A stretch of 36,834 nt of DNA from an uncultured Granulicella sp. (GTDB lineage Bacteria; Acidobacteriota; Terriglobia; Terriglobales; Acidobacteriaceae), in contig CALMVK010000034.1 in assembly GCA_937873145.1 (NCBI GenBank), positions 1-36,834 on the forward strand. The letters are read 5' to 3'. The position numbers and the translations under genes were made by a program. Shown here piece after piece: positions 34,813 to 36,351 of the stretch. The notes beneath the pieces were generated by a model that saw nothing but the letters and a program-made list of their open reading frames with translations, was not told where the DNA came from and searched no databases. How positions within the stretch are numbered: the stretch's first letter is position 1; each line of letters starts with the position of its first letter.

Positions 34813-36351
34813 ATGGACACCCGGATCGATCGTCGCAACTTTCTTCGCACCTCCCTTGCCGCCGCCGGTGCTCTCGCCGTTACGGATCCTGCCAGTGCGG
34901 AGCTTGTCTCCTCAGCTCAGCCCGGCCCACAGCTGACGGGCGCCACCTTCCCCAAGGATTTCCTTTGGGGAACCGCCACGGCTGCCTTTCAGGTTGAGGG
35001 CGCCTGGAAGGAGGACGGCAAAGGCGAGTCCATCTGGGACCGCTTTACCCACACTCAAGGAACGATTCGCGGCGGTGCCACCGCGGATGTCACCTGCGAT
35101 CACTATCACCGCTTCAAAGAGGATATTGGCCTCGTTCAGCAGCTCAACCTCAAAAGTTATCGCTTCTCCATCTCCTGGCCTCGCATCCAGCCTACCGGCA
35201 CGGGGCCGGCGAATGCCAAAGGCCTCGACCACTACTCCCGCCTAGTCGACACCCTGCTCGCTGCCGGTATCCGGCCCTTTTGCACGATGTATCACTGGGA
35301 TCTTCCCCAGGCACTTGAAGACAAAGGCGGCTGGCCTAACCGCGACCTCGCCGGCTACTACGCCGACTATGCCGCGATCCTCGGCAAACATCTGGGTGAT
35401 CGCATTACGGTGTGGGCACCCTTCAACATGCCCTGGACGTTCGCCTATCTCGGCTATGGCGCCGGAGCCTTCCCTCCCGGCAAGGCCGACTACACCCTCT
35501 TTCTACGCGCTGCGCACACGATCTCGCTCGCGCAATCGCAGGCGCTGCGCGCGCTCAAGGCCGTCTCGTCCCAGGCCTCTGTCGGAAGCGCCTATGGCAT
35601 GGCCCCGGCTTACCCCAAGACCAACAGCGAAGCCGATCGTGCCGCCACCGCCCGCTACCATGCCATGAACAACGTCTTCTTCCTCAACGCAGCCATGCGT
35701 GGCGAGTATCCCAAAGCGTTCGTCGGCGCAATCCCCTACAAAGAGATGGGCTTCCAACCGGGCGACGAAACCATCATGAAAGCTCCGCTGGACTGGGTTG
35801 GCTTTCACTATTACACCCGTCGTATCGTCTCCGATGCCACCCCAGGTGCGTCGGCCGGCGGTGCCCAATTCGGCACCGAAACCGAGCTCGACGGTGCCGA
35901 AGCCGCCGGCCGTGACCGCTACACCCGCTTCCACGCCGAAATGCCCACCGAAGGTCCGCTTACCGACGCCGGCCTCGAAGTCTACCCGCCCGGCATCCAC
36001 GACCTGGTCATGCAGATCTCCCGCGAGTACAACTTCCCCACCATCGAGATCACCGAGAGCGGCTGCAGCTACCTCGATGCCCCCTACGCCCGTGAAGGCG
36101 GCCGCATCCCCGATCTGCGCCGCATCGACTTTTTCCGCAGCTACCTCCAGCAACTCGCCCGCGCCCTTGCCGGCGGAGCCAAGGTCCGCTCCTATCACGC
36201 GTGGACCCTGCTCGATAACTTCGAGTGGGCGGACGGGTACAGCCAACGCTACGGCCTGACCTACGTCGACTTCCGCGACCAGAGACGGACCCTCAAAGAC
36301 TCCGCTCTCTGGTACGGTCGCGTAGCCGCCGCCAATCGCCTCGATCTCTGA
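34813..36351 (+). CDS. GH1 family beta-glucosidase-like protein with Tat signal, acid/base Glu replaced
   Basis: [17 protein letters not shown] leader; [98 protein letters not shown]. Confidence 0.95.

Follow-up and report, generated by a model that had tools for sequence, protein, structure and literature searches.

The locus and its product

The gene of interest, from a soil bacterium, lies near the end of a contig, in a stretch of DNA of 36,834 nucleotides that was analyzed as a whole (the window), and its translation is an uninterrupted frame from ATG to stop (Table 1). It is a lone gene, preceded by an lpxD-like one (32960-34255, identified by eye). Elsewhere in the window, the minus strand encodes a PolyA_pol-type nucleotidyltransferase (30728-32695; matching residues 51-177) with a long Ala/Lys/Pro-rich tail, and a protein of 966 aa (20292-23192) with a signal-like start, beta-propeller-like repeats (YVTN-like by eye) and then a phosphoesterase-like part, for which no Pfam match was found at 1e-5.

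Residues 44-508 of the product match Pfam Glyco_hydro_1 (PF00232) with 492 bits, covering positions 3-451 of the 453 in the profile. GH1 is the sole Pfam family of the window protein, and a GH3 family domain is absent. An AF2 model (pLDDT 86, pTM 0.86) has its best PDB fold matches among T. maritima GH1 structures, with a TM of 0.94 by target length. With its full-length profile and fold match and a nucleophile Glu in I/VTE(N/S)G (E415, which is Glu in all 90 clade rows that reach this column), the window protein is a GH1 by sequence. The original prediction of a full-length GH1 with an ITESG nucleophile motif and a Tat leader is borne out, the Tat signal model TIGR01409 being passed above its cut-off.

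Table 1 Positions of the GH1-fold gene and of the residues discussed, in window coordinates
Feature	Position	Strand	Basis or remark
GH1-fold protein, 512 aa, NMP-type	34813..36351	+	open frame, PF00232, AF2 model, PDB fold match
Tat signal	34813..34899	+	TIGR01409, 20.3 bits against a cut-off of 16.7
PFNMPW motif, acid/base Glu replaced by Met206 (codon ATG 35428-35430)	35419..35436	+	P203 also clade-specific
F220, at the place of His of GxHAPG, aglycone site	35470..35472	+	sequence comparison
G262, at the place of TnBgl1A N220 (motif alignment)	35596..35598	+	Glu in about half of the clade
His332 (GFHYYT), in place of Asn of GxNYYT	35806..35808	+	sequence comparison
Clade loop QFGTETE with conserved E356	35866..35886	+	low-confidence in the AF2 model
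L388, Trp in NEP relatives	35974..35976	+	L in 81/92 NMP rows, W in 59/59 NEP rows
Catalytic nucleophile Glu415 (ITESG), intact	36055..36057	+	E in 90/90 NMP rows reaching the column

The same prediction placed PFNMPW where NEPW is expected, near 35429-35443, and the motif is indeed there, a few bases away. In an alignment to solved GH1s, residue 206 falls without a gap on the Glu of NEP. Since NxPW aligns exactly at this Glu, the acid/base residue is not displaced in the alignment, and a shifted acid/base Glu, which had been named as a possible objection, was ruled out. Met206 and Pro203 are found in 92/92 rows of the clade described below, hereafter NMP, the window gene being counted twice among the 92, while Glu206 is found in 59/59 rows of relatives that retain NEP. 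The window protein scores 506 with NCBIfam TIGR03356 (GH1 beta-glucosidase), above the cut-off of 478.5. Although this score passes, a defining catalytic residue proved on checking to be missing, and the window protein should therefore not be named a beta-glucosidase (EC 3.2.1.21); that profile-based annotation calls NMP genes ordinary beta-glucosidases is a warning. Plant myrosinases, which are GH1 thioglucosidases, carry Gln at the place of the acid/base Glu. The window protein, with Met at this place, does not have the myrosinase residue.

An old and conserved clade

Among 61 genomes near that of the window, those of 13 other species in its genus have an orthologue that is 65-71% identical, all reading APFNMPW. 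About 90 distinct NMP proteins turned up when 84,980 species genomes and 399 of the class were scanned. Their carriers are mostly Acidobacteriota/Acidobacteriaceae, including Granulicella, Edaphobacter, Silvibacterium, Acidicapsa, Bryocella, Occallatibacter and others. Outside Acidobacteriota, NMP proteins occur in a few Alphaproteobacteria (Pleomorphomonas, Ancalomicrobiaceae) and in one isolate, Opitutaceae bacterium EW11. Some of the record labels look unreliable, namely those of MAGs given as Actinomycetes, Verrucomicrobiota and Rhodanobacteraceae. One record titled Rhodanobacteraceae (L119, CAJCHN010000095.1) is the same 59,789-base contig as one in a genome (G006) placed in the acidobacterial genus of the window, and is probably mislabelled. 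Plasmid records gave no match of at least 60% identity, and in the open-licence literature we found no description of an NMP GH1.

The NMP proteins form one clade, both in a FastTree phylogeny of 147 rows with columns 206 and 332 masked (support 100) and in an IQ-TREE phylogeny of 51 rows with eight active-site columns masked (support 99). This clade is nested within the NEP GH1s, where its closest relatives are two NEP proteins (L171 and L172). The median pairwise NG86 dN/dS of NMP genes is 0.17, and most of the closest pairs fall at 0.05-0.10. Judged from these sequences, the variant is old, conserved and under purifying selection. The alignment, tree and dN/dS comparison suggested with the original prediction thus yield a clade rather than the change confined to one strain that would have undone it; with about 90 distinct relatives carrying Met, a plain strain quirk was ruled out.

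Residues that changed with the acid/base site

Residue 332 is His in all 92 NMP (Met206) rows and Asn in all 59 NEP (Glu206) rows, and His332 is, tyrosines aside, the only new titratable residue fixed throughout the clade. On the present tree, the M206/H332 pairing is one evolutionary event that was never undone; because a single origin is all that the tree needs, it counts once and not as repeated evidence of coupling. In the clan-A family GH5, a His occupies the position two residues ahead of the strand-6 Tyr and contacts the acid/base. The only other case of His332 is a GH1 open reading frame seen in one genome only (L168, G238:C15:97500-102000), a relative of an NEP GH1 (L163) and likewise without the acid/base Glu. 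Its frame is open and its key residues are all altered (Q60, R117 to His, E206 to Asp, N332 to His, E415 to Gly and W464 to Arg), and it looks like a dead GH1.

Around this exchange, the window protein keeps its sugar-binding residues in the -1 site, and Q60, R117, H161, W162, N205, Y334, E415, W464 and W472 are essentially invariant in NMP proteins down to 53% identity. The protein resembles GH1 beta-glucosidases such as T. maritima TmGH1 (PDB 2j78/1od0) in this -1 site, in its fold and in its nucleophile motif, ITE(S/N)G. It differs from them in the change of the acid/base Glu to Met, in the change of the NYYT Asn to His, and in Phe and Leu replacing a His and a Trp of the aglycone site. Residue 220 is Phe in 73/92 and Leu in 8/92 NMP rows, against His in 53/59 NEP rows; further clade-wide differences are P203, W328 and Y480 (Phe in others). 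As far as sequence comparison tells, the aglycone side has been reshaped in favour of non-polar residues (H220 to Phe, W388 to Leu). This remodelling, the strict pairing of M206 with His332 and a subclade with E262 and Q471 go, as read from the alignment, beyond what was originally predicted.

That subclade emerges from the combinations at residues 262 and 471, which in the NMP clade are (G,E) in 42 members, (E,Q) in 40 and (E,E) in 6. Gln471 never occurs without Glu262, as all 40 Gln471 members carry it. Motif alignment matches residue 262 to N220 of TnBgl1A, which belongs to the second layer of the aglycone site; variants of N220 favour transglycosylation, including transfer to hexanol at a pH that leaves the acid deprotonated (PMC5247548). 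Unlike NMP proteins, these variants are engineered single changes that keep the acid/base Glu. We considered two acidic residues as universal substitutes for the lost one. E262 was ruled out, with Gly in half of the clade including the window protein, and so was E356, which is present in all 86 NMP members that have the clade loop and missing with that loop from 5 divergent members. In the AF2 model, strand 4 precedes residue 206, strand 5 ends at residue 262, and strands 6 and 7 contain residues 332 and 415. To judge from this secondary structure and the known barrel, residues 206, 262 and 332 should lie next to each other around the mouth of the active site.

Export, neighbours and paralogues

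By a simple rule, 77 of 87 NMP genes encode a Tat-like leader. It is missing in the members from Pleomorphomonas and Ancalomicrobiaceae, whose proteins may on this ground be cytoplasmic. Seven alphaproteobacterial genes without the leader (L069, L080, L096, L097, L107, L116 and L121) lie deep within the acidobacterial clade, a combination that points to lateral transfer and a later loss of export. At one of these loci (L069), a ROK regulator, a normal GH1 and an ABC sugar-binding protein are encoded within a few kb of the NMP gene.

The neighbours of NMP relatives vary by genome and are often carbohydrate genes, among them a TonB-type outer-membrane barrel, LacI, GH2, GH39, a fucosidase and a glucuronyl esterase. 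No conserved partner gene adjoins the NMP gene among the loci compared. As the neighbourhoods are not conserved, no substrate follows from them, and operon context was set aside as a substrate clue. In many genomes, that of the window (G000) included, the NMP gene coexists with a GH1 that has its acid/base Glu, so the NMP gene is a specialised paralogue.

Possible modes of action

GH1 is among the best-studied enzyme families, and to our knowledge its acid/base Glu is treated as indispensable, myrosinases and Klotho being among the few exceptions. An old bacterial clade that lacks this Glu and has exchanged Asn for His is a natural experiment on how a retaining glycosidase does without it. Taking the existence and age of the clade as observed, we infer how its members may work; the original prediction allowed for activated substrates, transglycosylation, an external nucleophile or sugar binding alone. 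The reading that we favour, to which we give slightly less than an even chance, is that the NMP protein is a still-catalytic retaining glycosidase or transglycosidase without a carboxylate acid/base, acting on an activated substrate with the aid of His332. E415 would still form the glycosyl-enzyme, because the nucleophile, Tyr334 and Arg117 are kept. As residue 206 is no longer a carboxylate, the aglycone would have to depart either without a proton, for which myrosinases are the known GH1 precedent, or with the help of another group, for which the GH3 enzymes Nag3 and BglP are precedents. The natural substrate would have an aglycone whose departure takes hardly any protonation or none, such as an aryl, acyl or similar group, perhaps anionic, and probably less sugar-like, because polar and aromatic aglycone residues were lost. 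His332, in a strand near the vacated site, could aid the leaving group or the second step, in which water or another acceptor attacks. Purifying selection, the joint fixation of M206 and His332, the status of His332 as the one new titratable residue besides tyrosines, and the coexistence with a GH1 that has its acid/base Glu speak for this reading as well.

Such an enzyme would retain a glucose-type -1 site, a covalent nucleophile and, in most members, Tat export, and would operate much as a plant myrosinase does, itself devoid of the acid/base Glu, with a built-in His in addition. Myrosinases and NMP proteins alike keep the nucleophile and have lost the acid/base Glu. This likeness in sequence comes with differences, as NMP proteins have Met and not Gln, have the new His332, are bacterial and are mostly Tat-exported. 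In myrosinase, the part of the base is played by ascorbate, to go by the title of a paper (Burmeister 2000) that PMC8945721 and PMC4783991 cite. If active, the NMP protein could offer a natural scaffold for a GH1 transglycosidase or a thio- or acyl-glycosidase. The kept -1 site counts against the activated-substrate reading to the extent that it is also expected of a protein that only binds sugar.

A rather unlikely alternative, though one with a real chance, is that His332 is itself the true acid/base, so that the protein would cleave ordinary glycosides that are not activated or, with no carboxylate left to repel it, favour an anionic acceptor (phosphate, carboxylate). The model here is the GH3 enzymes Nag3 and BglP, where phosphate can attack because the usual carboxylate has given way to a His/Asp dyad (PMC8950772). 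That such a carboxylate-to-His exchange admits phosphate in Nag3-type enzymes, and that His332 is universal in the NMP clade, fit this alternative. In about half of the clade Glu262, which in the model ends the strand that separates those of 206 and 332, could pair with His332 as a dyad, but the other half, window protein included, has Gly262 and so no dyad. Phosphorylases are marked by the lack of a signal peptide (PMC8950772); the leaderless Pleomorphomonas and Ancalomicrobiaceae members would suit this, yet most members are Tat-exported. The likeness to the retaining GH3 phosphorylases, which also lack a carboxylate acid/base and have a His near the site, is at most a mechanistic analogy, as the NMP proteins belong to another family and fold. 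Taken further, catalysis rebuilt around His332 would make NMP proteins natural GH1 transferases or phosphorylases favouring anionic or non-water acceptors, which from the sequences we regard as unlikely.

The protein may instead have given up catalysis and serve to bind or sense sugar on a GH1 fold. KL domains of Klotho are GH1-like and lack a catalytic Glu, and offer a comparison in kind; they belong to animal receptors and differ from NMP proteins in the status of the nucleophile. An acid/base that was lost and never regained in about 90 descendants, with the sugar-binding residues kept, is what such a binder would show. Selection on a mere binder would, however, act less strongly to preserve the nucleophile together with the Tyr and Arg that support it, and the nucleophile was never lost. 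The substitutions are moreover concentrated in the catalytic and aglycone sites, and no conserved partner gene stands beside the NMP gene, all of which leaves this possibility unlikely.

A decaying gene, or an error of sequencing or assembly, has next to no chance of being the answer: its sole point is that Met is no substitute for Glu in the usual mechanism, whereas frames are intact and open, dN/dS is low, the clade is single and well supported, and every full-length member has the nucleophile, so that simple decay, already doubted at the outset, is excluded. The codon at 206 is ATG in all 91 NMP genes whose codons were read, which rules out sequencing error and with it the earlier worry over a misread GAG or GAA.
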